Shown here: one piece after another, positions 3,325 to 41,638 of the stretch
Layout of the letters: every line of letters starts with the position of its first letter
Position numbering within the stretch: the first letter of the stretch is position 1
Origin: Bombella pluederhausensis
GTDB taxonomy: Bacteria; Pseudomonadota; Alphaproteobacteria; Acetobacterales; Acetobacteraceae
Assembly: GCF_026385525.1 (NCBI RefSeq)
Contig: NZ_JANIDY010000003.1
Location: 1-64,000, forward strand
Length of the DNA stretch: 64,000 nt
Direction of reading: 5' to 3'
Program-made: the position numbers and the translations under genes
The notes under the pieces: generated by a model
Told to the model about the DNA's origin: nothing
What the model saw: the letters and a program-made list of their open reading frames with translations, nothing else
The model's database searches: none

Positions 3325-3760
3325 GATATGGGTGGCCTGTCTGAATGGCCTGCGCCCGGAAAAGCTGTTCTGCCAACATAACCCGCACCAGCATATGCGG
3401 CCATGTCAGTTTTCCTAGCGAGAAAACAGCATCTGCCCGCTGAATAATGGCAGCATCAAACCCTTCTGCCCCACCAATCATGAAACAGACAGGGCGGCCA
3501 CTTTCCTGCCATCCCTGCAACTGGGATGAGAAAGTCAGACTGTCTATCAGCTTACCGCCTTCATCCAGCGCTACAAGAAAAGCATTATCAGGACAGGCCG
3601 CCAGAAGGGCTTCAGCCTCCCGCCGTTTCAGCTCTGCCGGGGCACCACGCCCCTGAGCCACTTCCACAATCTCGAGTTTTGGACGCAGACGGGCACAGTA
3701 CCGGTCCAGCATGTCCCGTTCAGGGCCAGATTTCAGTTTTCCGACAGCAATGAGCTTCAT
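3305..3760 (-). CDS. rlmH: 23S rRNA (pseudouridine1915-N3)-methyltransferase RlmH
   Basis: SPOUT-class methyltransferase that methylates pseudouridine 1915 in helix 69 of 23S rRNA. 151 residues, close to the family length of about 155. Diagnostic parts are the N-terminal [16 protein letters not shown], the central [12 protein letters not shown], the SAM-binding knot with [10 protein letters not shown] and [21 protein letters not shown], and the C-terminal HPYHKAGRP. Last gene of the minus-strand run with rsfS (27 bases upstream) and nadD. The rsfS-rlmH neighbourhood is common in bacteria and links ribosome silencing and modification. Confidence 0.97.
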
Positions 3761-3787
3761 GCCGAAGCCCTCTCGCCGTACCTCATC

Positions 3788-4198
3788 TTACTCAACAGCG
3801 ATTTCTTCCGCTGCGGCTTCAAAATCACCGCCCCACATGCGTTCAAGCGCATAAAGCTCCCGGCTTTCCGGCATGAAAAGATGAACGACCACATCGCCAG
3901 CATCCATCAGGACCCAGTCACTACCCTGATCCCCCTCAATTTGCGGGCGGGCAAGATTTTCTTCTTTCAGGCGGCGTTCAAGATGCTGCGCCATAGCGGA
4001 AATCTGACGCTCAGAAAGGCCACTGGCAATGACCATACGCTCGGCGAATCCTGCACGACCTGTCAGGTCCAGCACAACGACATTCTCGGCCTTGTCCTCA
4101 TCCAGGCTTTCCGTGATGACAGACAGAAGACGGGCCAGCCCTTCCTCACTACGAGGGGCGGAAACGGGGGTTTCAGTCGCGTTGATGATGGTTCTCAC
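3788..4198 (-). CDS. rsfS: Ribosome silencing factor RsfS
   Basis: Binds L14 on the large subunit and blocks 30S joining when nutrients are scarce. 136 residues. RsfS hallmarks are ESLDEDKAENVVVLDL, MVIASGLSERQISAMAQHLERRL, and GDQGSDWVLMDAGDVVVHLFMPESRELYALERMWG (several contiguous pieces of the domain). The first 20 residues are a variable extension. The start codon overlaps the end of nadD by four bases, so translation is coupled. The order nadD-rsfS-rlmH is widespread. Confidence 0.96.
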   Translation of the reverse strand: MRTIINATETPVSAPRSEEGLARLLSVITESLDEDKAENVVVLDLTGRAGFAERMVIASGLSERQISAMAQHLERRLKEENLARPQIEGDQGSDWVLMDAGDVVVHLFMPESRELYALERMWGGDFEAAAEEIAVE

Positions 4199-4866
4199 TC
4201 CTGATCGACAGATGGGCGAAACTGCCCTTTTTGACGCAAAGCGGTCGAAGATATGTCATTCTGAGGCGCAGACAGGAATGTCCAGCCCGGCCCATTTCTT
4301 TTCTCTAGCAGAAGTGACGCCGCCCTTCCATCATGTCGATAACGCCGCAGAACGGAACTCGCTCGCCCTTTCAGGGCCGGTATGATGCTTCCCGGCCGGG
4401 GTAGAACGGCAATTGGCACCATCTGTGCCAACCGCCGCCATGACCGCCAGCGGGAGAACTGTGCCAATCCATCCGACCCCATAAGCCAGATGAAACGACA
4501 GTGAGGAAAACGCTGCCGGAGCATTGCCACAGTCCTAACCGTGTAACGCTGACCCAGCTTCTGCTCTATATCCATCGCAATGATACGCCGCCCATCTGCC
4601 AGAGCCCGCGCTGTCTCCAGCCGTTGGGAAAACGGGGCCATGCCTTTACGGGATTTGAGCGGATTCCCCGGCGAGACCATCAGCCAGACCTGATCCAGCC
4701 TCAGGCTTACCAGAGCTTTACGGGCAAGCTGGATATGCCCCTCATGCGCTGGGTTGAATGATCCCCCCAACAGGCCAATGCGCATTCGGCGACCATCCCC
4801 AAACCGAGAGGCCGCAGCCCCCAGCGGAGTCGCTGGGGACTTACGAAGGGAAGAATGTCCCTTCAT
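4195..4866 (-). CDS. nadD: Nicotinate-nucleotide adenylyltransferase NadD
   Basis: Converts nicotinate mononucleotide and ATP to deamido-NAD. 223 residues as drawn. The nucleotidyltransferase motif GLLGGSFNPAHEGH lies near residues 31-44, and the C-terminal ISSTALR motif closes the ATP site. The start is uncertain. ATG 4866 lies nine bases after ychF but has no clear ribosome site. ATG 4785 (MRIGLLGGSFNP) has GGGGATGG in front and would give 196 residues. Basic N-terminal extensions do occur in related bacteria. Co-transcribed with ychF upstream and rsfS downstream. The other NAD gene here, nadE, is unlinked at 13.5 kb. Confidence 0.95.
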   Translation of the reverse strand: MKGHSSLRKSPATPLGAAASRFGDGRRMRIGLLGGSFNPAHEGHIQLARKALVSLRLDQVWLMVSPGNPLKSRKGMAPFSQRLETARALADGRRIIAMDIEQKLGQRYTVRTVAMLRQRFPHCRFIWLMGSDGLAQFSRWRSWRRLAQMVPIAVLPRPGSIIPALKGRASSVLRRYRHDGRAASLLLEKRNGPGWTFLSAPQNDISSTALRQKGQFRPSVDQE

Positions 4867-4875
4867 AGACCAAAC

Positions 4876-5970
4876 TTAGACGTTGAAACGGAACAGCAGA
4901 ACATCACCGTCCTGCACGACATAGTTCTTACCTTCAACACGCAGTTTACCGGCTTCACGAGCACCAGCCTCACCTTTGTAGGTCACGTAATCATCATAAG
5001 CGATGGTTTCGCAGGCAATGAAGCCACGTTCGAAGTCGTTATGAATGACAGCAGCAGCCTGCGGGGCCTTTGTGCCTGCCGTGATTGTCCATGCACGAGT
5101 TTCTTTCGGGCCAACCGTGAAATAAGTCTGAAGACCCAGCAGGCGATAACCGGCAGCAATCACACGATCCAGACCGCTATCCTTCAGGCCGAGACCATCC
5201 AGAAACTCCGTCCGTTCTTCCGCATCAAGCTGGCTGACCTCGGCTTCAATGGCTGCAGACACAATAACAGCCCCGGCACCTTCTGCCTCGGCCCTCTTAC
5301 GGACCTGCTCGGAATAAGCATTGCCGGTTGAGGCCGCAGATTCTTCCACGTTGCAGACGTACAGAACCGGCTTGGTTGTCATCAGCTGGAGGCGAGCTGC
5401 TTCAGCTTCCTTACCTTCCGGCACGGCCGTACGGGCAGGCTTCCCTTCACGCAGAGCAGCCAGCAGCGGCTCCATGAGCTCAAGCTGTTCTTTAGCCTCA
5501 CGGTCATTGCCACGGGCACGCTTCTCCAGCCCGACCTTGCGGCGTTCCAGACTGTCCAGATCGGCCAGCATCAGCTCCGTCTCGATGATGTCTGCATCAC
5601 GCACGGGATCCACGCCGCCCTCAACATGGGTGATGTCATCATCATCAAAGCAGCGCAGAACGTGAATGATCGCATCCACCTCACGAATATTCGCAAGGAA
5701 CTGGTTCCCCAGACCTTCCCCTTTGGAAGCTCCACGCACCAACCCGGCAATATCCACAAACTCAAGGCTTGTCGGCACGATACGCTGAGAATTGCCAGCT
5801 TTTGCCAGAACCTCCAGACGTTCATCCGGCACAGCCACCCGCCCGGTGTTCGGCTCGATGGTGCAGAACGGATAGTTAGCGGACTGGGCCGACGCCGTCT
5901 GCGTCAATGCATTGAAAAGAGTGGACTTACCGACATTGGGGAGGCCAACGATCCCGCAATTGAACCCCAT
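4876..5970 (-). CDS. ychF: Redox-regulated ATPase/GTPase YchF
   Basis: Obg-family P-loop protein (OLA1/YchF) that binds ATP and ribosomes. 364 residues, the usual length. Walker A is GLPNVGKST at residues 8-16, followed by [14 protein letters not shown], the G3 segment [22 protein letters not shown], an inserted coiled-coil region around residues 130-200, and a C-terminal TGS-like domain ending [10 protein letters not shown]. The order pth-ychF is conserved across bacteria and is seen here with a 75-base gap. Confidence 0.97.
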
Positions 5971-6045: not shown

Positions 6046-6615
6046 TCAGTTCCGCCGCAGAGCCGTCTTTGTCATGAAAGCTTCATGCTCACCCTGCGCC
6101 AGAAGCGGCGTGGCATCCGCCATATCATCCAGCCACAGCTCCAGCTCTGGCCGCTCGGTGCTGGAGAAATCCCCCAGCACATGGCCATGCACTTTCTCCC
6201 GGCTGCCCGGATGACCAATACCCAGACGGACACGCCAGTAATCAGGGCCGGGAAGGGCTTTATCCATAGAGCGCAGACCATTATGCCCGGCAGCTCCACC
6301 GCCCCGCTTAACCCTCATCTTCCCGAAAGCCAGATCAAGCTCATCATGGAAGACCGTAATCTCATCCTGTGGGATTTTATAGAAACGTGCTGCCTGCTGC
6401 ACACTGTCACCAGACAGATTCATATAGGTCAGCGGCTTAAGCAAAAGAATCTTTTGCCGCCCGACCATACCTTCCGCCGTTTCCCCACGGAAGCGCTTGC
6501 GCCACGGGCCAAACCCGTGGCGCGAGGCAATCGCATCGACTGCCATAAAGCCGATATTATGCCGGTTGCGACTCATTGATGTGCCCGGATTACCGAGTCC
6601 GACCCAGAGCTTCAC
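6046..6615 (-). CDS. pth: Peptidyl-tRNA hydrolase Pth
   Basis: Hydrolyses peptidyl-tRNAs released from stalled ribosomes. 189 residues. The family signature is complete: VGLGNPG at the N-terminus, NRHNIGF with the catalytic histidine, LLLKPLTYMNLSG, FHDELDLAFGKMRVKRGGGAAGHNGLRS, and RVRLGIGHP. Lies 14 bases after rplY in the rplY-pth-ychF block found in many proteobacteria. Confidence 0.97.
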   Translation of the reverse strand: MKLWVGLGNPGTSMSRNRHNIGFMAVDAIASRHGFGPWRKRFRGETAEGMVGRQKILLLKPLTYMNLSGDSVQQAARFYKIPQDEITVFHDELDLAFGKMRVKRGGGAAGHNGLRSMDKALPGPDYWRVRLGIGHPGSREKVHGHVLGDFSSTERPELELWLDDMADATPLLAQGEHEAFMTKTALRRN

Positions 6616-6629
6616 AACCGTAATACCCC

Positions 6630-7244
6630 TTACTTGGCTTCAGCAGCTTCCTCGGAAGCCTCTGCCGGTTCTTCATCGACTGTCGGCGGTGCGATAGAAG
6701 CAATCACGAAGTTGGGGATATGCAGGGTCGGTGTGGAATGTTCCGTACCCTGAAGGTCGTCCCAACGCACGTTGTCGTTGATGTCCAGCTTGCTGAGGTC
6801 AACCGTGAAGTGCTCAGGAATGTTCTCAACCGGCACTTCAACATCAACAGCGTGACGAGCAATGTTCAGCACACCACCGCGCTTGATGCCCGGAGCGTCT
6901 TCTTCACCCGTGAAGGTAATGCCGACCTGAACATGCACAGTCTGACCAGGGACCAGACGCAGGAAGTCGATGTGGATCGGCGCATCAGACACCGGATGGA
7001 ACTGGATGTCACGGATCAGGGCATGGACCTGCTCGCCACCAATGTTGAACTGATACAGGCGTGAGTGCCAGGCACCACGATGCAGTTCCTTCATGATGAT
7101 GCGCGGGTCGATGGAGACCAGAACCGGCTCCTTCTTACCACCATAAACCACGCCCGGGACCATGCCCTCACGACGTGTTGCGCGCGCTGCCCCCTTACCT
7201 GCTTTGGCGCGCTGGGAGATCTCCAGTGTCGTTACTTTCGCCAC
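6630..7244 (-). CDS. rplY: 50S ribosomal protein L25/general stress protein Ctc
   Basis: 5S rRNA-binding large-subunit protein of the long Ctc type. 204 residues: an N-terminal L25 domain (about 1-95, with [16 protein letters not shown] and [19 protein letters not shown]) and a C-terminal TL5-type beta domain ending in an acidic tail ([15 protein letters not shown]). First gene of the pth-ychF block; 109 bases separate it from pgeF, so it probably has its own promoter in 7245-7353. Confidence 0.96.
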
Positions 7245-7353
7245 GTTATACGCTCCTGCGTTCTAAAATTATCACGACCAACCGGCCTCCAGGGGTGCCG
7301 GATGGTTGCCCCGCCCTAGCGGAAAAAAGCGGAAAAGACAATTTTTTTATCTC

Positions 7354-8139
7354 TCAGCCTTTCATCCCCGCACGGATGACAGAAAGCTGACGGCCTGTTC
7401 GTGCATCACCCTTCAGGGTCGCCCGGCGATGGCTGAAAAACCGATCATCCGCCAACGTGTCATACCCTGTCCACTCCGCCTTCACGCCCTGCTTTTCCAG
7501 CAGAGACAGGCAGAAGGCAGGTAGATCAAACTGATAATGCCCCTGCCGGGCCGCAGCCGTAAAGAAACGCTCCCCTTCAGGGTGCCGTTCCAGAACATCC
7601 CGGCGCATATCCTCACCAATCTCATAAGAAGCCGGACCAATGCAGGGACCAACCACAGCACGGAGTCCCTCTGCCCCCAGAAGACGCATCTGCTTCACGG
7701 TCTGTTCCAACACGCCGCCCACGGCTCCACGCCAGCCCGCATGAGCCGCACCGACAATCCGGCCATCTTCAGAGGAAAACAGCACAGGGGCGCAATCCGC
7801 CGTAGCCACACCCAGGGCGATCTCCGGACAATCCGTCACAAGTGCATCCCCTGCCGGGAGGGCCTCATGACCATCTGTATGAGACCAGACATCCCGCACA
7901 TGCCGCAACACATGCACGTCTGCCCCATGAACCTGACGGAGAGCCACAAACCGCTCCAGCTCTACCCCCACAGAGGCCGCCATTCGCCGCCTGTTCTCCT
8001 GCACATCCTGAGGCCGATCCTGCGTCCCTAACCCACCATTCAGTGTCTCATAGGGGGCAGAGGACACCCCTCCATCCCGTGTAAAGAATCCATGCCGAAC
8101 AGGCAGGAGAGATGACGAAAAGAACGGAAGCTGCTTCAT
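7354..8139 (-). CDS. pgeF: Peptidoglycan editing factor PgeF (YfiH/laccase-domain family)
   Basis: Purine-nucleoside-phosphorylase-like laccase-domain protein. The E. coli homologue removes mis-incorporated L-serine from UDP-MurNAc precursors. 261 residues. Family marks are HGFFTRDGGVS, VALRQVHGADVHVL, ADALVTDCPEIALGVATADCAPVL-type copper/zinc-site segment (residues about 95-120), AAHAGWRGAVGGVLEQTV and GPCIGPASYEIGE. Overlaps lgt by four bases, giving the operon hldD-lgt-pgeF of envelope genes. Confidence 0.93.
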   Translation of the reverse strand: MKQLPFFSSSLLPVRHGFFTRDGGVSSAPYETLNGGLGTQDRPQDVQENRRRMAASVGVELERFVALRQVHGADVHVLRHVRDVWSHTDGHEALPAGDALVTDCPEIALGVATADCAPVLFSSEDGRIVGAAHAGWRGAVGGVLEQTVKQMRLLGAEGLRAVVGPCIGPASYEIGEDMRRDVLERHPEGERFFTAAARQGHYQFDLPAFCLSLLEKQGVKAEWTGYDTLADDRFFSHRRATLKGDARTGRQLSVIRAGMKG

Positions 8140-8963
8140 TCTTCAATCCTGTCTGTTTCCCGTGCAGGACGGCGGAACGCATAGACCATCAGGCCAATAC
8201 CGGCCAGCGCCATGGGCAGGCACAGAATCTGCCCCATGGTCACACCTCCTGCCAGAAAGCCAATATTGTCATCCGGCTGACGGAACAGTTCGCAGAAAGC
8301 CCGGGCACAGGCATAGCCGAACAGAAACAGGCCAGAAAGGAACCCAGCCCGTGCCCGCAGAGCCGGACGGCTCACAGCCAGCAGCAGCACAATCAACAGA
8401 AGGACGCCTTCCGTCAGGGCTTCATAAAGTTCGGAAGGATGGCGTGGTTCCGGCCCGACCGCCGGAAAAATCATGGCCCACGGCACGGCACTGGCCACAG
8501 GCCGCCCCCAGAGTTCGCCATTAATGAAATTGGCACACCGTCCCAGAGCCAGCCCGATGGGCACGACCACCACAATCCGATCCGAGAAAGCCAGAAAGTT
8601 CAGACCCCGCCGCCATGTGAACAGCGCAAGCGCAATGATGACGCCCGCCGCCCCACCATGAAAGGACATGCCGCCCTTCCATGTAGCAACGATCTCCAAA
8701 GGATGAGCAAGGAAGAACAACGGCCGGTAAAACAGGACATAGCCCAGCCGCCCGCCCAGCAGCACACCCAGTACCGCATAAACGAGGAAATCATCCACCG
8801 CCAGTTTCGAAGCCACCTTTGGGCCCAACTGAACCAACCGGCGAGCCAATGGCAACGCAATGACAAATGCCATGATGTAGGCGAGCGCATACCAACGCAC
8901 CACCAACGGCCCCAGCTGAAAAGCAACCGGGTCCAACCCCGGAAAAACAAGCGTATGCGTCAC
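8136..8963 (-). CDS. lgt: Prolipoprotein diacylglyceryl transferase Lgt
   Basis: Inner-membrane enzyme that attaches diacylglycerol to the lipobox cysteine of prolipoproteins. 275 residues with about seven membrane segments. The YALAYIMAF stretch, GGRLGYVLFYRP, GGMSFHGGAAG with the essential histidine, and the Lgt signature GRCANFINGELWGRP are present. Overlaps hldD and pgeF by four bases on either side, so the three are co-translated. It serves lipoproteins such as the lipobox protein encoded at 27801-28388. Confidence 0.97.
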   Translation of the reverse strand: MTHTLVFPGLDPVAFQLGPLVVRWYALAYIMAFVIALPLARRLVQLGPKVASKLAVDDFLVYAVLGVLLGGRLGYVLFYRPLFFLAHPLEIVATWKGGMSFHGGAAGVIIALALFTWRRGLNFLAFSDRIVVVVPIGLALGRCANFINGELWGRPVASAVPWAMIFPAVGPEPRHPSELYEALTEGVLLLIVLLLAVSRPALRARAGFLSGLFLFGYACARAFCELFRQPDDNIGFLAGGVTMGQILCLPMALAGIGLMVYAFRRPARETDRIEE

Positions 8964-9940
8964 AGATAGGACCTTCCTGATGCCAGATAGCCCTCAACAT
9001 AAAGGCCGATCCCATCCTCCAGAGAGGTGAAAGGGGCTTTGTAACCTGCCTCACGCAAGGCCCACATATCTGCCTGCGTGAAGGACTGATACTGCCCCTT
9101 CAGGCTCTCCGGCATCGGCACATAGTCAATCTCTGCCGGGCGCCCCGCTGCCGCACAGACAGCCCGTGCCAAAGCTTCATAGGTTCGAGCCTGCCCTGTT
9201 CCGCAGTTGAACAAGCCGCTGATGGCAGGATGCTCCAGCAGCCAGAGCAGAACATTCACCACATCCCCAACCCAGATGAAATCACGCTTCTGCTGGCCAT
9301 CCTCAATATCGGGACGATCAGACTGGAATAAGCGCACAGGGCCACCAGCCATCAGCTCATCATATTTCACCTTGATGACCGAGATCATCTTCCCCTTGTG
9401 GTACTCATTAGGGCCATAGACATTGAAAAACTTCAGGCCAGCCCATTGTGGCGGGGTTGGTTCGCCCGCTTCCACCGTCCGCTTCACCCAGAGGTCGAAT
9501 GCCTGCTTGGACCAGCCATAAAGATTAAGCGGCTGTAGTGTATCCACACTCTCCAGCCCATCAGCAAACAGCTCCGACCTGTCCGCTGCCCCGTAAGTCG
9601 CTGCGGACGATGCGTAAAGGAACGGAACCTGACGTTCTGCACACCACTGCCAGAGCAGCTGGGACAGGGTAACATTACTCTGCCAGACCAGATCACCATC
9701 ACGGGCCGTTGTCTCGCTGATAGCCCCCAGATGGATGACAGCCTCCACACCACTGGCTGTTTCCAGAAAAGCAGGCAGCTCATTGGGAGGCACGATCAAA
9801 TGTGGCGGATGGGCGGCAAGGTTACGCCACTTCCCCTGATCGTGAAGGTAATCCACAATGACAGTCCGCCGCCCCTGCTGGAACAGGGCCTGCTGCACGC
9901 ATGAACCAATAAATCCGGCTCCACCGGTGACGATAATCAT
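8960..9940 (-). CDS. hldD: ADP-L-glycero-D-manno-heptose-6-epimerase
   Basis: Epimerises ADP-D,D-heptose to ADP-L,D-heptose for the LPS inner core. 326 residues. TGGAGFIGS (residues 5-13) binds NADP; YASSAATYG and the catalytic Y-x-x-x-K (YGWSKQAFD) follow, with FFNVYGPNEYHKGKM and VYVGDVV-like FIWVGDVV typical of HldD. The KMISVIK segment distinguishes it from UDP-galactose epimerases. First gene of the hldD-lgt-pgeF unit, divergent from ubiK; promoters of both must lie in 9941-10091. Confidence 0.95.
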   Translation of the reverse strand: MIIVTGGAGFIGSCVQQALFQQGRRTVIVDYLHDQGKWRNLAAHPPHLIVPPNELPAFLETASGVEAVIHLGAISETTARDGDLVWQSNVTLSQLLWQWCAERQVPFLYASSAATYGAADRSELFADGLESVDTLQPLNLYGWSKQAFDLWVKRTVEAGEPTPPQWAGLKFFNVYGPNEYHKGKMISVIKVKYDELMAGGPVRLFQSDRPDIEDGQQKRDFIWVGDVVNVLLWLLEHPAISGLFNCGTGQARTYEALARAVCAAAGRPAEIDYVPMPESLKGQYQSFTQADMWALREAGYKAPFTSLEDGIGLYVEGYLASGRSYL

Positions 9941-10091
9941 TCTTCCTGTATAGTCTGGCGGAAAGCGGCTTCCAACAGAAAGAACGCAGGAACAGGGGGA
10001 GAGCTGTTGACAGACCCTCTCCCCGTTCTGAAAGAGTCATGACGGAAAAATCGGATCCGTTTTCAACGCCGCATGTTCAGGAGTGTATGAT

Positions 10092-33886: not shown

Positions 33887-35347
33887 ATGGCGAAAAAAGC
33901 AGTTTCCACTCCTTCCGCACAACGCCCTTCCCCTCAGAAAGCCGCCGTCCAGCGCGTTTTTGAGCTGATCGAAGAGCACGGCATTGAGTTTGTCGATCTC
34001 CGCTTCACCGACACAAAGGGCAAATGGCAGCACACAACCCAGACTGTCCGCACAATCGAGGACGACACCTTCACCGAAGGCTTCATGTTTGACGGCTCCT
34101 CCATCCAGGGATGGAAGGCTATCAACGAGTCTGACATGGTTCTCCTGCCAGACCCGGAAACTGCCGTGGTTGATCCTTTCTCCGCCCGCCCGCAGCTGAT
34201 CCTCATCTGCGACATCATCGACCCCAAGACAGGCGGCTATTACAACCGTGACCCCCGTGCAACCGCCAAGCAGGCAGAAGCCTACCTGAAAAAGAGCGGT
34301 CTGGGTGACACGGCCTTCTTCGGCCCGGAAGCTGAGTTCTTCATTTTTGACAGCGTCCGCTTCGGCACGGGTGAGAATTACGGCACCTACCACCTCGACA
34401 GCATCGAGGGGCCGGAAGCTTCCATGAAGGAATATCCGGAAGGCAATATGGGCCACCGTCCGGCCCGTAAGGGTGGTTACTTCCCGGTCCCGCCGGTGGA
34501 TAGCGAGCATGACCTGCGTGCCGAAATGCTTGCCACCATGGGCGAGATGGGCCTGCCAATTGAGAAGCACCATCACGAAGTGGCCCGCAGCCAGCATGAG
34601 CTGGGGACAGCATTCGCTACACTGGTGAAGTCTGCTGACTTCATGCAGATTTACAAATACTGCGTGCACAATGTTGCTCATTCCTACGGCAAGACAGCAA
34701 CCTTCATGCCGAAGCCGATCTATGGCGATAACGGCACCGGGATGCATGTACATCAGTCCGTGTGGAAGAATGGTAAGCCGCTCTTTGCTGGCAAGCGCTA
34801 TGCTGATCTCTCTGATGAAGCCCTGTATTACATCGGCGGTATCATCAAGCACGCCAAGGCGCTGAACGCCTTCACCAACCCATCCACAAACTCTTACAAG
34901 CGTCTGATCCCGGGCTTCGAAGCTCCGGTGCTGCTGGCTTACTCCTCTGCCAACCGTTCCGCTTCCTGTCGTATCCCGCATGCTACCAGCCCGAAGGCAA
35001 AGCGTGTTGAGGTCCGCTTCCCCGACCCGACAGCCAACCCTTACCTCGCCTTCAGCGCCATGCTGATGGCTGGTCTGGACGGTATCCGCAACAAGATCCA
35101 TCCGGGCGAAGCCATGGACAAGGACCTGTACGAGCTGCCGCCGGAAGAACTGAACATGATCCCGACTGTCTGCGGCTCCCTGCGTGAAGCTCTGGAAGCC
35201 CTGAAGACCGATCATGCCTTCCTGCTGGAAGGGGATGTCTTCACCAAAGATCAGATCGAGAGCTACATCACGCTCAAGATGCAGGAGGTGTACCGCTTCG
35301 AGCACACACCGCATCCGGTTGAGTTCGAAATGTACTACTCCGTCTGA
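33887..35347 (+). CDS. glnA: Glutamine synthetase type I
   Basis: ATP-dependent amidation of glutamate; main ammonium assimilation enzyme. 486 residues from ATG 33887, slightly longer than the usual 470 because of a 20-residue Ala/Ser/Pro/Lys N-terminus. [53 protein letters not shown] and [10 protein letters not shown] are present. The adenylylation tyrosine is in DLYELPPEE, so ATase control is expected. The frame opens 99 bases earlier, but this start restores the family N-terminus. No glnB precedes it, unlike many proteobacteria. Confidence 0.97.
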
Positions 35348-36811: not shown

Positions 36812-37013
36812 CTCGACTCTCCCCGTGCTTCCATGCTCAGCCGTCAATCATGGCTCACTGAGCAAAACAGGCCCCGGCAACAACACAGTCCCAGTAGGCC
36901 ATCTGACGGGAAAAGCCACGGGATTTCTGTCTGCCTCCGCCTTACATGGTTGTGAGCCTCGACAAAAAACAGGGCCGTGTAAAGGCCCTACCTAGAAAAC
37001 TTCCTTTCATGAT

Positions 37014-37292
37014 TCATTTACCTAATTCGAAATCAAGATTTTTCAAAATGCGGCAAACAGCGACATTTGCATCAACAAATTCGTCCCAGCTATACTGCTC
37101 TGCATAATTCAGCTGATATTGTCGATCTACCCTACAAATATCTGGCCTAGTTTCGTAAATTAAACAACGCTTGCCTGTATCATCATAATACTGACAGCTC
37201 CCATCTCCTCGATCCAAATAACGTGTCTGTTCCGCCATATCTACATTTTGACAACACAGACCGCACTGAGTGCAGGGAAATTCTTTTGTCAT
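37014..37292 (-). CDS. YkgJ-family cysteine-cluster protein
   Basis: 92 residues, putative zinc or iron chelating protein. The cluster CTQCGLCCQN at residues 7-16 and later cysteines in GSCQYY, KRCLIYETRPDICRVD and AVCRIL match the YkgJ (CxxCxxCC) pattern. ATG 37292 shares one base with the stop of the nuclease-like gene upstream (TGATG), so translation is coupled. The DNA is AT-rich (37021-37080 has 21 G+C in 60). Last gene of the island operon; in this context it may mature or regulate its partner. No function is established. Confidence 0.88.
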   Translation of the reverse strand: MTKEFPCTQCGLCCQNVDMAEQTRYLDRGDGSCQYYDDTGKRCLIYETRPDICRVDRQYQLNYAEQYSWDEFVDANVAVCRILKNLDFELGK

Positions 37293-38914
37293 CACAACAA
37301 TGATGCCAACCAGTTTCGTGTACTTCCTAAATCTCCCATCTCAAATGGCAATTCGATACCACGCTCCCTAATTACTTTTTTGAGCACAAGGTTACGCTGA
37401 ATTTCATCATTACAAACTTTCAGGTCCAATGTAAAAGCCTGCAACTCCTCTGCATCAAGATTAAACTCTAACAAACTTAATTCAATTAAATAACGATCCA
37501 GCTCTGCATTAACAGCTTGGAACTCCTTGACCGTTTCTACATGCGGCATAAATGAATTAATACACTTCCAAACCTTCCGAGCTATTTTACTGTACAGTAA
37601 GAAGTAGTTCAAACCTAATGTTAAAATCCCCGTGATAAATGTACTGGCAAATGCCGCTAACTCAGCACCAAATGGAAAGTTACATATTGGTAACAATTTA
37701 GCATATGCAACTGAACCAACCACCGTACCCACCCCTATAGACAACAAAGAGACTATCTTCTGGCAGAGCTCGGTAAAACTTAGCTGATCTGGATTGAAGA
37801 CCATCAATTTAATAAATTCGATCAGCTGCCCCCATAATTCACGGATAATCTTTATCGCCATTTCATGAGTAGTAACAAAAATATTAAATAACGTTGTTGT
37901 CAGGCTTCCAAAGACACCTGCAAAAACACCATCCTTAAATACTTTCAGAAAATAGCTGAAACGCTCTTGTACGCGTTTCCATATCCCTTTGAGAGACTTA
38001 TTAATGCTATTAATAAATGTCTCAAGCTTGAAGTTTTGTTTAAGTTCATTAAGTAATGCAGGTAGCTGTTCACGCAACTCGAACCAGATCTCTGCCAGAA
38101 CAACTCCAAGCATCTGTCGGGTACCCATAGCTATCCCTGCCATACCAGCAGCCTTAGCTGTTTGATACAAAAACTTACTACTGGAATAGTATGTACGATT
38201 AATTTGCTGTTCATAAGCCCCCCGCGCTTCAGCATCACGCCTGCGCATGGCTTCAGAATCAACAGCTTTCAGTTCGGTAATCTTATTCTCGGTCTTACGA
38301 ATCTTGTCTTCTAAGACACGAATCCGATGCTGGTGCTCAGGTGTTTCACGTTTCAGACCCGCCAAGCGCTCCCGATCTCTAACCAACGTAGATTCATGCG
38401 TAGTGATCAGATCCGGTAATCTCTGCAGATAATTATCAATAGAAGCCTGTTTCTTCGATTTATTAACACTTTCATGTGTAGACTGTAGATTGCTGCTTTG
38501 GTTGGCCAAGTCTACTCCACTTAGACCTGCCAGTTCACGCCCTGCATCATCATGAATTTCCTTAGCACTAATGACATGATCAAGATTGCGTTTTTCATTA
38601 ACGCCCATCATGGTATTGCGGTACGGATCATACAAAGTTCCGCCTGTTTGACGGACTCCATCCTGCTGACCGGTACTTTTATAATTAGCATGCTCATGAT
38701 AGGCCTTACTGCTGTAAGCCTCACGTTGATCGTAGCGTTTCCGTTCCGTGTCTGTGGCCCACACACCATTACGTACGTTATGTATGGTGTCTACTTCACC
38801 ACCTTTCTGGTCTTTAAAGAGCAAGAAGTCCAAACCAAAGCTTGTTGCCAAGCTCTTTATTAAAGTCTTCTCAAGTTCCTTAGTCCAAGGAAAATCTTGT
38901 GCAGCAACAGACAT
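37292..38914 (-). CDS. Putative HNH-nuclease-like protein with C-terminal membrane domain, unrecognised family
   Basis: 540 residues. An N-terminal region holds LDHVISAKEIHDD (H113), then LAGLSGVDLANQSSNLQ (N142) and VNKSKK (N151), a spacing that fits the beta-beta-alpha metal fold of HNH nucleases. A charged coiled coil follows (about 165-235). Hydrophobic segments then occur at about 256-277, 327-347, 388-408 and 418-441, so the second half is likely membrane-embedded, with a soluble helical end. ATG 38914 (MSVAAQDF) is preferred; the frame opens ten codons earlier. Middle gene of the AT-rich operon, 54 bases after the glycine-rich gene. Nuclease activity is inferred from motif only. Confidence 0.6.
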   Translation of the reverse strand: MSVAAQDFPWTKELEKTLIKSLATSFGLDFLLFKDQKGGEVDTIHNVRNGVWATDTERKRYDQREAYSSKAYHEHANYKSTGQQDGVRQTGGTLYDPYRNTMMGVNEKRNLDHVISAKEIHDDAGRELAGLSGVDLANQSSNLQSTHESVNKSKKQASIDNYLQRLPDLITTHESTLVRDRERLAGLKRETPEHQHRIRVLEDKIRKTENKITELKAVDSEAMRRRDAEARGAYEQQINRTYYSSSKFLYQTAKAAGMAGIAMGTRQMLGVVLAEIWFELREQLPALLNELKQNFKLETFINSINKSLKGIWKRVQERFSYFLKVFKDGVFAGVFGSLTTTLFNIFVTTHEMAIKIIRELWGQLIEFIKLMVFNPDQLSFTELCQKIVSLLSIGVGTVVGSVAYAKLLPICNFPFGAELAAFASTFITGILTLGLNYFLLYSKIARKVWKCINSFMPHVETVKEFQAVNAELDRYLIELSLLEFNLDAEELQAFTLDLKVCNDEIQRNLVLKKVIRERGIELPFEMGDLGSTRNWLASLL

Positions 38915-38968
38915 GGCAACATCCGAAAAATAAGTAATGTACAAAACAACGTAAAGCTATCAAGGAGA

Positions 38969-40069
38969 TCAAGTAGATTCTCTACGGGCAGCTTTTTCCT
39001 TAGCCTTATCAATTTCCTGATCCAAACGATCTTTATTAAGGATCATCGAACCATCTTCATCTGTCTCCATTATCGATACACCATTTTTATCCTTAACAAC
39101 CTCACCATTAACATATTTGACCTTAAAAAGTGGCGTCGTAATCAAATCAACAAGAATGGCTGCCAAGGCATAACCATTTTGAATTGCATAAATGACAGTA
39201 TCATTCACCTGAGCCAATTTGGCCTGTGCATTCTGTTTGGTTGATCCAGAGGTTTCGATCCAATCGGAAATCTCTTTAAGAACCTCAAAATATTTATCAA
39301 ATTGTTCATAAATGGACTTCAATACAGAAAGAATATCAGAAGAATAACGTTTTATGTCACTAAGATTCTGTTGTGCTCTTTTTAGTTTTTCCACGGCGCT
39401 GTTGACTTCACTTTCTGCCTTACGCGCATTCTTCAGCGATTCCTCACCATGACTGTTATAAGCCCACCCCGCAATGGCCAGCACCGGACCCGCTACAGCA
39501 GCACCGAGAATTGCCGTGCCACCAGCCATACCCAAACCACCAGTAGCCAACGAACCACCACCAATAGCTGCTAATGTAGCATTAGTCGCAGCAACACCAG
39601 CTAAAGAAGATATAGCCGTACCAGTAGAGGCAGCACCCAGTGCCATTACACCTCCATATATAGCGAATCCTGTGGCAGCCCCGGTAACACCTGCTCCCGC
39701 TACAGTCCCCAGCACGCCAATGGCTGTATAACTGTAACTATCAACACTATTTAATTTATGCTTAGGAATGTTTATTTCCAATTTATCTTGTCGGCTAGCA
39801 TTTAATTTATGCAATAACTTATCAGCCAGTATTTTAAATTCATTAAAACACTGTCCAATACGTAGTTCTTCCTTTCCTAACACTTCAAGAGCCGAAGTTG
39901 TGGCGGCCTCCTGTGCATCAAAGACTTCTCTATTTCGAGCATAGCGTTTTTTCGCACGATTAACGATATCATCAGCCTCTGAATGGCTCTGATAGCCATC
40001 ATAGCCTTTCTTAACGCCATACGCCCCGGCAGCTAATGCTGCAGCACCAAGGATAAGAGGAAGTGGCAC
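38969..40069 (-). CDS. Glycine-zipper membrane/coiled-coil protein, unknown function
   Basis: 366 residues. A short N-terminal hydrophobic helix (PLILGAAALAAGAYGVKKG, residues 4-22) is followed by a coiled coil (about 28-100), a 90-residue Gly/Ala-rich hydrophobic region (about 115-205, e.g. GTVAGAGVTGAATGFAIYGG), a second coiled coil (about 206-275) and a charged tail ending KEKAARREST. The start is GTG 40069 with GGGATTTTATC in front. Similar gly-zipper plus coiled-coil proteins occur elsewhere, sometimes mislabelled chemotaxis proteins; I know no proven function. First gene of the island operon; a membrane pore or scaffold for the nuclease-like partner is possible. Confidence 0.6.
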   Translation of the reverse strand: MPLPLILGAAALAAGAYGVKKGYDGYQSHSEADDIVNRAKKRYARNREVFDAQEAATTSALEVLGKEELRIGQCFNEFKILADKLLHKLNASRQDKLEINIPKHKLNSVDSYSYTAIGVLGTVAGAGVTGAATGFAIYGGVMALGAASTGTAISSLAGVAATNATLAAIGGGSLATGGLGMAGGTAILGAAVAGPVLAIAGWAYNSHGEESLKNARKAESEVNSAVEKLKRAQQNLSDIKRYSSDILSVLKSIYEQFDKYFEVLKEISDWIETSGSTKQNAQAKLAQVNDTVIYAIQNGYALAAILVDLITTPLFKVKYVNGEVVKDKNGVSIMETDEDGSMILNKDRLDQEIDKAKEKAARREST

Positions 40070-40495
40070 GATAAAATCCCATCATGAATTATTTAGAATC
40101 TTTTATGATTTAGACCTAATTCTATTTAAAAAGGCAATCTATAATTTACATCTATAAAAAGTGCTTTTAGATCCATTTTTCCTTTAATATGTAATTAACC
40201 TTTGCCTTGATATAATAAAAGTAAGAGATATAAAGAAAACACTCATCTATACGCTAATTATTTAACCTTCCCCATAAGTGTTAGTCAGATGTCAAACACC
40301 CGTATGTTCATTCTGGACAAAATTTATAAAAGCTCAGCGCTAAATGTAGAACACTCTATTTTCACCATTAGGGCATTACAAAAAAATTACTAGTATACCC
40401 CTTCTGGAGGCTCCTTAATGGAGCCTCCAGCTGTTCTCCCCAAAAAACAGCAACGCTTTCACAGAAATGTCCACAAAAGACAACCTGATACAGGA
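40070..40495. other. AT-rich gene-free flank of the island
   Basis: 426 bases, very AT-rich in the left part. No credible reading frame. It must contain the promoter of the minus-strand island operon; TTGCCT and TCTAAA 17 bases apart (minus strand, near 40110-40140) is a weak candidate. The inverted repeat at 40404-40430 marks the return to typical composition. Confidence 0.5.
40404..40430. repeat. Perfect 11-bp inverted repeat at the island edge
   Basis: CTGGAGGCTCC and GGAGCCTCCAG flank TTAAT. No T-run follows on either strand, so it is not a standard terminator. It lies 66 bases downstream of the gcvT stop and at the composition boundary. Confidence 0.75.
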
Positions 40496-41638
40496 TCAAT
40501 GCCCTATCTGTGAAACGAATGGCAGGGCAGTAACTACAACCGTATGAGGCTGCCCGGCGGCATCAACAGCAAAAAGTCGTGTTCCTTCTGCCGCATGGGC
40601 AGGGGTCACGTACCCCATGGAAATCATGCACCGCAAAGTCGGGCTGAAACAGCCTGACGTGATACGGCCCACACGGTCGGTTCTGGCTTCATCTGAAAAC
40701 AGCTCCACACCGCCCGCCAGAAGAACATCCCCTTCCGGCTTCAACCCGACACGTTGACGATAAATGCCGTGTTCGAGCTGCCCTTCAATCGTTTCAGCGC
40801 CGGGATACCCACCAGCACGCTCCCCACCAGGGCGGCGACATACCGCAATATTGCCAACCAAAGAGGCTTCCACCGGCGAAGTTGTCTTGTCGATATCCGC
40901 ACCGTACAGACACAGCCCTGCTTCCAGCCGCAGGCTGTTACGTGCTTCCAGACCGGCAGGGGCAACATCCGGATGTTCCAGAAGACGGCGGGCAAATGCT
41001 TCCGCCGCATTAGCCGGTAGGCAGATGTCAAAACCATCCATCCCCGTATAGCCGAAGCGTGAAACGGTGATGATACCCCCCTCATGCTGAAGGTCGAAAC
41101 TGTCACGGTACCGCATACCCGTGATGAGTGATGCATCCAGTATCTGAGACAGTACGGCTGCCGCTGCCGGCCCCTGAAGGGCGATCATGGCCCGGTCGAA
41201 CTCCCGCACCAGCCTGCACTCATCACCCAGTGCATTCTCAATGTAATCAGCGTTGGCTTCCCGGTTTTTGCCATTCAGTATCAGCAGGAAATCCCCTTCC
41301 TGCCGTGAAATAGCCAGATCATCCCGGATGCCCCCCTGATCGGTCGTCAGCAGGGCATAACGTATCCTGTTTTTTTCCAGCCCCATGACATCCACAGGCA
41401 TCAAGGTCTCAAGTGCCTCAGCCACGGCAGTCATGTTGCCATCCTTAGCCCGGACACGCACCTGCCCCAGATGGGAAATATCAAACAGACCGGCCTGCTT
41501 GCGGGTATGCAGATGCTCTACCTCCATACCAGAAGGATAATGTGCGGGCAGTTCGTAGCCGTCATATCCTCCCATCTGGGCATTCAGTTCTTTATGAAGT
41601 GCCTGAAGGGGGCTGGGCTGTAAGATCTCATCCGTCAT
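40496..41638 (-). CDS. gcvT: Glycine cleavage system T protein (aminomethyltransferase)
   Basis: Transfers the aminomethyl carbon from lipoylated H protein to tetrahydrofolate. 380 residues. AGLFDISHLGQVRV, LTTDQGGIRDDLAI, the folate-site ALQGPAAAAVL, FGYTGMDGFDICLP, AGLEARNSLRLEAGLCLYGADI and a C-terminal barrel domain (GRITSGCFSPTL). ATG 41638 (MTDEILQPSPLQALH) is the natural start; the frame opens earlier. gcvH and gcvP are not adjacent, so the system is split or incomplete here. Lies 97 bases after panB. Confidence 0.93.
   Translation of the reverse strand: MTDEILQPSPLQALHKELNAQMGGYDGYELPAHYPSGMEVEHLHTRKQAGLFDISHLGQVRVRAKDGNMTAVAEALETLMPVDVMGLEKNRIRYALLTTDQGGIRDDLAISRQEGDFLLILNGKNREANADYIENALGDECRLVREFDRAMIALQGPAAAAVLSQILDASLITGMRYRDSFDLQHEGGIITVSRFGYTGMDGFDICLPANAAEAFARRLLEHPDVAPAGLEARNSLRLEAGLCLYGADIDKTTSPVEASLVGNIAVCRRPGGERAGGYPGAETIEGQLEHGIYRQRVGLKPEGDVLLAGGVELFSDEARTDRVGRITSGCFSPTLRCMISMGYVTPAHAAEGTRLFAVDAAGQPHTVVVTALPFVSQIGH

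Follow-up and report, generated by a model that had tools for sequence, protein, structure and literature searches.

The stretch analysed here, 64,000 nucleotides of Bombella pluederhausensis (contig NZ_JANIDY010000003.1, positions 1 to 64,000) and hereafter called the window, carries three neighbouring open reading frames (ORFs), all on the minus strand, which we name A, B and C in their order of reading. A encodes a glycine-zipper and coiled-coil protein, B a protein with an HNH motif, and C a small cysteine-cluster protein of the YkgJ family (Table 1). The original prediction, drawn from the letters of the window, had singled them out as an AT-rich island of same-strand genes and supposed a role in defence; we confirm the trio, which is mobile and conserved and has a defence-like character. 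The one-base overlap announced at one of the junctions lies between B and C (TTGTGATGACAAA): it measures 1 base if C starts at its ATG and 4 bases if it starts at its GTG. The ORF listed for B (37292-38944) has 550 amino acids (aa) from a TTG; homologues favour the ATG at 38914. B and C overlap by 1–4 bases in the window, Klebsiella, Escherichia coli, Vibrio, Photobacterium, Duffyella and Clostridioides difficile, which suggests that in many loci the two genes are probably translationally coupled; in Allochromatium they do not overlap and leave a 7-base gap.

The base composition changes sharply at these genes. The G+C content of the insert is 40.7%, against 55.6% for the remainder of the window, and all the overlapping stretches of equal length taken elsewhere in the 64 kb (n = 537; mean 55.7%, minimum 51.3%) lie above it. 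At third codon positions, G+C is 31–39% in A, B and C versus 57–69% in three neighbouring genes. The two counts given earlier for this break, 21 G+C of 60 at 37021-37080 and 36 of 60 at 34201-34260, were exact on recounting. Both flanking stretches are present in the ten congeners searched; B was found in a single one of 60 relatives, the window's own genome, hence in none of the ten congeners, and in 1 of 385 genomes of the class. For the seven congeners that were aligned, homology ends on the left at 36987-37013 in six and at 36822 in the most distant one; on the right it restarts at 40496 in five, and at 40507 and 40526 in the other two. These boundaries fit an insertion, and the seven congeners have the empty site. 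The same limits of homology give the content of the insert, which besides the three genes takes in some 0.4 kb on the upstream side of A. No integrase was seen within it. A 10-base direct repeat, CAAAAAACAG, occurs at 36963 and 40441, close to the ends of the insert but not on them; since its positions are off the two ends, we rejected it as a target-site duplication.

Table 1. Position of the features in the window, and in related loci (L numbers) where indicated.
Feature	Position	Strand	Remarks
Horizontally acquired insert	37014..40495	.	Left edge accurate to ~30 bases; break of congener homology and low G+C
Gene A	38969..40069	-	366 aa, GTG start; glycine-zipper/coiled-coil, PDC-M09A-like; putative sensor or scaffold at the membrane
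Glycine-zipper segment of A, residues ~115-205	39455..39727	-	Where the A family alignment has most of its invariant columns
Gene B	37292..38914	-	540 aa from the likely ATG; HNH, hydrophobic stretches in the C-terminal half, PDC-M40B-like; putative effector that cuts DNA
HNH catalytic core of B (D112-H113 ... N142 ... N151)	38462..38581	-	Invariant residues and GmrSD_C profile match
Gene C	37014..37295	-	93 aa from GTG (ATG at 37292); YkgJ-family CxxCxxCC, eight cysteines
Perfect inverted repeat, terminator-like	40404..40430	.	Upstream of A; direct sequence reading
Complete GmrSD-type protein, Pseudomonas panipatensis	L002 10133-11854		GmrSD_N 1.5e-34, GmrSD_C 2.1e-23; adjoins the set; the HNH of B is of the same GmrSD_C type
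Short protein replacing B, between or beside A and C	L008 5946-6377; L009 5944-6339; L010 6054-6488; L093 2104-2496		130-144 aa

The three genes occur together well beyond Bombella. Among 72,556 plasmid records, B was detected in 59 at E<=1e-5 (64 at E<=0.01), A in 42 and C in 41. All 41 C-bearing records carry A as well, and 37 of them have B among the matches listed. Seen from B, for which the matches listed cover 61 of the 64 records, the 37 records with a close B all have A and C, and the 24 with a distant B have neither. The 42nd A record (Leptolyngbya) matches A over one third of its length only. In the A+C records of Acinetobacter, Massilia and Vitreoscilla a protein of 131-144 aa replaces B, and the A+C record NZ_OP378641.1 shows no B among the matches listed. 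The records are not independent, since Klebsiella plasmids that are almost the same account for many of them. In a survey of the phylum (398 genomes), C was found at E<=1e-8 in four, each with a match to A: the window genome and G651 have a strong full-length B, G461 has a short protein in its place, and in G662 A is only partial and adjoins a contig end. In the family of G651 (246 genomes), 12 genomes have C at E<=1e-10, and A lies beside it in 11 of them; these 12 comprise six with B, four with a PDC-M09B-like protein, one with a shorter A only (L128) and one with C alone (L131). A 98.5% copy of the Klebsiella set is found in 3 of 5,426 E. coli genomes. The A-B-C set is present in Acetobacter, Allochromatium, Cupriavidus, Klebsiella, Vibrio, Photobacterium, Duffyella, Pseudomonas and E. 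coli, and C. difficile carries it in the order B-C-A. None of the three proteins falls in a characterised housekeeping family of Pfam or NCBIfam.

So many plasmid homologues, some of them on conjugative plasmids, could point to a plasmid-borne function, i.e. entry exclusion, plasmid competition or maintenance, and not to phage defence. We consider this unlikely. The plasmid count is biased, plasmids being one of the two annotated collections searched by protein; B also occurs in jumbo phages and on a prophage-like contig; and there are chromosomal copies: on an island at tRNA-Sec in E. coli, on the 4.65-Mb enterobacterial contig L123, and in the window itself, where the insert lies between conserved genes.

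The association of the three genes is not rigid. We scored 40 loci (the window plus 39, with one duplicate), picked for matching A, B or C and so not a random sample. Seventeen contain A+B+C; two, those of the Aeromonas phages LAh10 and D9, contain A+B without C; A+C are accompanied by the short protein in four loci, by a PDC-M09B-like protein in four, and by neither in two; ten have B without A and C, and one has C alone. In the ten B-only loci, B has other neighbours. On a Citrobacter plasmid (L012) it follows JukA (2.4e-58), and the partners found in L011, L014, L072 and L073 weakly resemble the C-terminal part of this JukA (E 7.7e-05 to 5.4e-03). B precedes PDC-M40C in L013 (E. coli p4M9F), relatives of PDC-M40C adjoin B in L064 and L071, and putative partner genes adjoin B in L065 and L066. 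In L012 (4594-7404) JukA stands directly before the B-family HNH gene, with a WYL regulator upstream and genes annotated as radical SAM and histidinol-phosphatase downstream. The label "TerB-like", given by eye to the partners in L011, L072, L073 and L014, was dropped, the L011 protein having no Pfam match.

The companions of A and C are exchanged as well. The PDC-M09B-like proteins that adjoin them were recognised by PADLOC in L125, L127 and L132, whose sequences gave a profile that then matched the one in L130; these loci form a four-gene version made of the PDC-M09B-like gene, a protein of ~188 aa, A and C. Three of the ~188 aa proteins were scanned and gave no Pfam match. The short proteins replacing B stayed below the Pfam cut-offs, and PADLOC, applied to four of them, matched none. 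A cluster of genome G710 (L098, G710:C8:184000-198000) brings together, at 6334-9959, an A-like protein, PDC-M09B (1e-190) and JukA (5e-54), which suggests that PDC-M09 and Juk are part of one scheme. C tracks A and not B, the partners of A+C are exchanged, and B is also found with other putative sensors. This suggests that A+C may be the recognition part and B the effector, a proposal that draws on the pattern of partners more than on any single match. Tentatively, and with somewhat more doubt than confidence, it could be extended: A+C would then be a transferable immune core, present in bacteria and on plasmids (A only in jumbo phages), recognising invaders at the membrane and coupled to varied effectors—the GmrSD_C-type HNH protein B, PDC-M09B-like proteins, the short helical protein—with C as an immune YkgJ protein that serves A as a checkpoint dependent on metal or redox state.

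The same pattern bears on the idea of a bacterial competition effector, in which A and B would be delivered into neighbouring cells and C would confer immunity. A nuclease together with a helical membrane protein recalls a colicin in outline, and three plasmids carry, further off, a two-partner secretion pair, a leukocidin-family gene and a conjugation gene, respectively. C, however, is also found with partners that have no kinship to B, which is not what one would expect of a protein conferring immunity to B; among the annotated neighbours of the opened loci we saw neither type VI secretion nor lysis genes by name, and phage carriage and the WYL regulators described below point elsewhere. We give this idea hardly any credence.

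D112, H113, N142 and N151 are invariant in the 29 aligned B proteins, distant and partial prophage-like copies included; two of the 29 are one plasmid, L126 being evidently L070 (each 571,293 bases). H113, the residue named in the original prediction, sits in the HNH motif of B. Eight other proteins, matched by the B profile only over residues ~85-180, all carry PF07510 GmrSD_C (E<=0.0062, seven of the eight above the curated cut-off). The comparison by hhalign of the B family with five GmrSD_C proteins gave a probability of 97.1 (E 7e-11) and aligned the DH, N and N columns; as these five were picked via their match to the B profile, it is not an independent draw. Taken alone, window B has no Pfam HNH match at E<=1, and GmrSD_C is matched by 2 of 10 family members only, weakly (best E 0.026). 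The GmrSD_C (DUF1524) fold is HNH-like, according to PMC10952713. From its residues and profiles B is a predicted HNH nuclease of the GmrSD_C type. Besides, it matches the PADLOC candidate family PDC-M40B at 1.7e-27, the best stretch covering residues 203-451 of the 550-aa form. Public records often name its homologues "cobalamin adenosyltransferase" or "ATPase"; we found no support for these names.

A also has counterparts in PADLOC: PDC-M09A (2.5e-23) and LeoBC (7.3e-08). The search of the PDB sequences with profiles of A and B gave nothing meaningful. Coiled-coil and tape-measure matches of A and B, obtained with single sequences in Pfam, NCBIfam and PHROGs, were taken as chance, and the tape-measure kinship of A (PHROG 4197, 2.3e-04) was set aside as low-complexity. 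Homologues of A are often recorded as "chemotaxis protein", a name for which we found no support either. C matches PF03692 (1.8e-07, 32.2 bits for a 23-bit cut-off) and has no PADLOC match at E<=1. Its eight cysteines are retained in 27 of the 28 aligned homologues, the exception being L132, where the gene is split; we take the split to be due to an insertion with a transposase-like ORF (L132 5578-7188).

Several relatives of the trio lie beside known defence genes. A WYL regulator stands upstream of A (of B in C. difficile) in 7 of 16 distinct A-B-C loci, recognised by PADLOC or annotation in L002, L007 and L068 and by Pfam in L109, L123, L124 and L129; a WCX-only fragment is found in L005 and L122, and an opposite-strand WYL-like ORF in L067. 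A four-seed WYL profile detected nothing in the window, L003, L004, L063, L069 and L070; it also missed the L122 fragment, so that these absences are soft. The WYL domain of the E. coli regulator was confirmed by Pfam and by a profile built without the E. coli sequence. In the PDC-M09B-type loci, WYL is upstream in three of four (L125, L127, L132), none being found in L130. PMC9122601 reports that WYL regulators are found together with phage defence systems. In the two E. coli loci opened, the set has the WYL regulator on one side and, on the other, a tyrosine integrase at tRNA-Sec; the island also contains helicases and a type III methyltransferase. In L129 an integrase and tRNA-Phe are within about 4 kb. 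In P. panipatensis the set is adjoined by a type III restriction-modification system, the GmrSD protein of Table 1 and the WYL regulator. Among the forms with the short partner, that of Vitreoscilla has a type I restriction-modification system alongside, that of Acinetobacter a SIR2/PDC-S25 protein nearby, and that of Massilia a methyltransferase annotated as phosphorothioation-associated, for which PADLOC gave no confirmation. The Duffyella locus has a toxin-antitoxin pair.

Other neighbours might evoke a metal, redox or membrane-stress response, with the nuclease as a by-player: C is a cysteine-cluster protein, and TerB genes, recognised by Pfam, adjoin the whole set in Vibrio and the pair A and C in G461; similarity to these two indicates TerB in G662 as well. 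Shango and Bunzi, both anti-phage systems, nevertheless contain TerB too (PMC10952713), and a patchy distribution, 1 genome out of 385 in the class, with exchangeable partners fits conflict systems better. A stress-response set is therefore very unlikely.

Phages themselves carry part of the set. B is present in four Aeromonas jumbo phages (D3, D6, D9 and LAh10), i.e. in 7 of 50,697 records, and in the two that were opened, LAh10 and D9, the A profile detects A upstream of B; searching the phage records by tblastn with A and C of the window gave no match, though that profile does detect A in LAh10 and D9. The phages AerS_266 and ZPAH34, of the same clade as these Aeromonas phages, are reported to encode chimallin (PMC10673249, PMC10321303). 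Because of this, we hold the sensitivity of our tblastn search with the phiKZ shell protein to be too low: it returned 95 matching records, with no Aeromonas phage among them. Scans of viral contigs with single proteins gave nothing; with alignments, A1 led to one prophage-like contig and A2 to four remote glycine-zipper proteins. On one IMG/VR contig (L014), B comes after a partner gene, behind apparent phage tail genes; in what is presumably the tail region of a prophage, partner and B follow a short gene at the spot that we would assign to the tape measure (3390-5486). The carriage of B and A by jumbo phages fits inter-phage competition.

A number of observations weigh against a membrane-bound defence system. 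C of L131 has no A in its stretch. C is missing from both opened jumbo-phage stretches and matches none of the phage records, so that it is not always needed. By a simple hydropathy scan A has up to three hydrophobic stretches and B one or two in its C-terminal half; the "own membrane helices" first attributed to B are partly supported by these stretches, which do not establish firm transmembrane helices. The AlphaFold models of A and B, built from alignments of 3 and 2 rows, are weak: that of A (pLDDT 53) displays a long helix, a hydrophobic stretch and a long helix, and in that of B (pLDDT 55) the HNH part is of low confidence (block pLDDT 23-36). The window copy has no WYL gene that we could find, with the softness noted above, and its neighbours resemble what we take to be housekeeping genes. 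Near the A-B-C loci of Acetobacter, Photobacterium and Duffyella we could recognise neither restriction genes nor similar ones for defence. Finally, as to the enrichment near defence genes that was to be looked for at the outset, several defence-like neighbourhoods were described, locus by locus and without a random-locus control.

The model of A bears on another explanation, abortive infection: A would be a helical pore or membrane disruptor, B would cut the host chromosome upon sensing, the cell would die or arrest, and C would restrain A. This would agree with the layout modelled for A at low confidence, with its weak likeness to the alpha-xenorhabdolysin subunit A (8.3e-04, 18.7 bits for a cut-off of 125), with the pore described for JukB, the effector of Juk (PMC13282480), and with the four loci where a short protein replaces B, which would suit a pore centred on A. 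On the other side, the fold search with this weak model gave no match at E<=0.001, cytolysin A coming at 0.092 amid unrelated coiled coils, and a suicide system is presumably not something that a jumbo phage retains, except if its action is confined to rivals. Abortive infection is possible but rather improbable, and for A as a pore the weak model and the lack of a significant fold match offer no support; we retain the likeness to pore toxins as a lead. Of the initial picture, a membrane-associated effector with a pore or sensor partner acting in defence, what stands is the co-occurrence of the genes and the defence-like neighbourhoods; the pore and the firm transmembrane helices are conjectural.

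The trio differs from the systems it recalls. Window B matches PDC-M40B, and the PDC-M40B homologue of E. coli p4M9F has the same HNH residues, but neither A nor C corresponds to PDC-M40C at E<=1, and nothing in the window matches the E. coli PDC-M40C protein; the window has A and C instead. Similarly, A matches PDC-M09A, and the sister loci combine an A-like protein, C and a PDC-M09B-like protein, whereas the window lacks PDC-M09B and has the HNH protein in its place, C lying outside PADLOC. With LeoABC, which is dynamin-like, the glycine-zipper region of A shares a resemblance to part of LeoBC, but the GTPase domain is without match in A. In Juk, JukA recruits the effector to the early phage vesicle, and the effectors are diverse (PMC13282480). 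Its sensor-plus-effector logic is alike, and B beside JukA in Citrobacter makes the analogy concrete, as does the joint presence of an A-like protein, PDC-M09B and JukA in G710; still, A, B and C of the window have no JukA match at E<=1 in PADLOC, no JukB match is listed for B (the presence of a JukB model in the library was not checked), and B is an HNH protein where JukB is described as a pore. SNIPE is a membrane-bound nuclease that cuts phage DNA during injection (PMC13190303), a role that by analogy B might share; yet SNIPE consists of GIY-YIG/DUF4041, and none of the three proteins matched either domain at E<=1. With GmrSD (DUF262 + DUF1524) B shares an HNH region of the GmrSD_C type, but GmrSD_N (DUF262) is unmatched in the three proteins and B has C-terminal hydrophobic stretches instead. 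By its defining features the trio is neither Juk, SNIPE nor GmrSD. Word searches not covering bioRxiv and most of the subscription literature returned no paper naming "PDC-M40" or "PDC-M09", and no title or beginning of an abstract naming this trio. To all appearances the A-B-C combination has so far been neither named nor tested; the former statement that no named system has this trio holds in this sense, with the reservation that A and B each match candidate defence families of PADLOC.

From genomic context and homology we infer a role in defence, and we put at roughly 55% the probability that the trio is a mobile, horizontally acquired anti-phage or anti-plasmid module working at the membrane, where A, together with C, senses the invader and guides the nuclease B to incoming DNA. 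In this scheme the glycine-zipper region would let A bind to the inner membrane or insert in it; A and its cysteine-cluster partner C would detect invading DNA or phage structures there, which would be the trigger; A would recruit or activate B, whose GmrSD_C-like HNH part is joined to a possibly membrane-associated C-terminal part; and B would cut the entering, or vesicle-held, genome at the membrane. The membrane location of A and B is suggested by hydropathy and analogy. A would be the sensor, incoming DNA the substrate, and C might gate or mature A.

Such a module would link the anonymous PADLOC candidates PDC-M09 and PDC-M40 to the Juk sensor family, through a membrane-directed recognition part with exchangeable effectors, and a YkgJ-family cysteine-cluster protein gains a testable role. 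It would offer a possible second route, besides SNIPE, to a nuclease immunity confined to the membrane. In jumbo phages, the same genes would be a weapon in the competition between phages.

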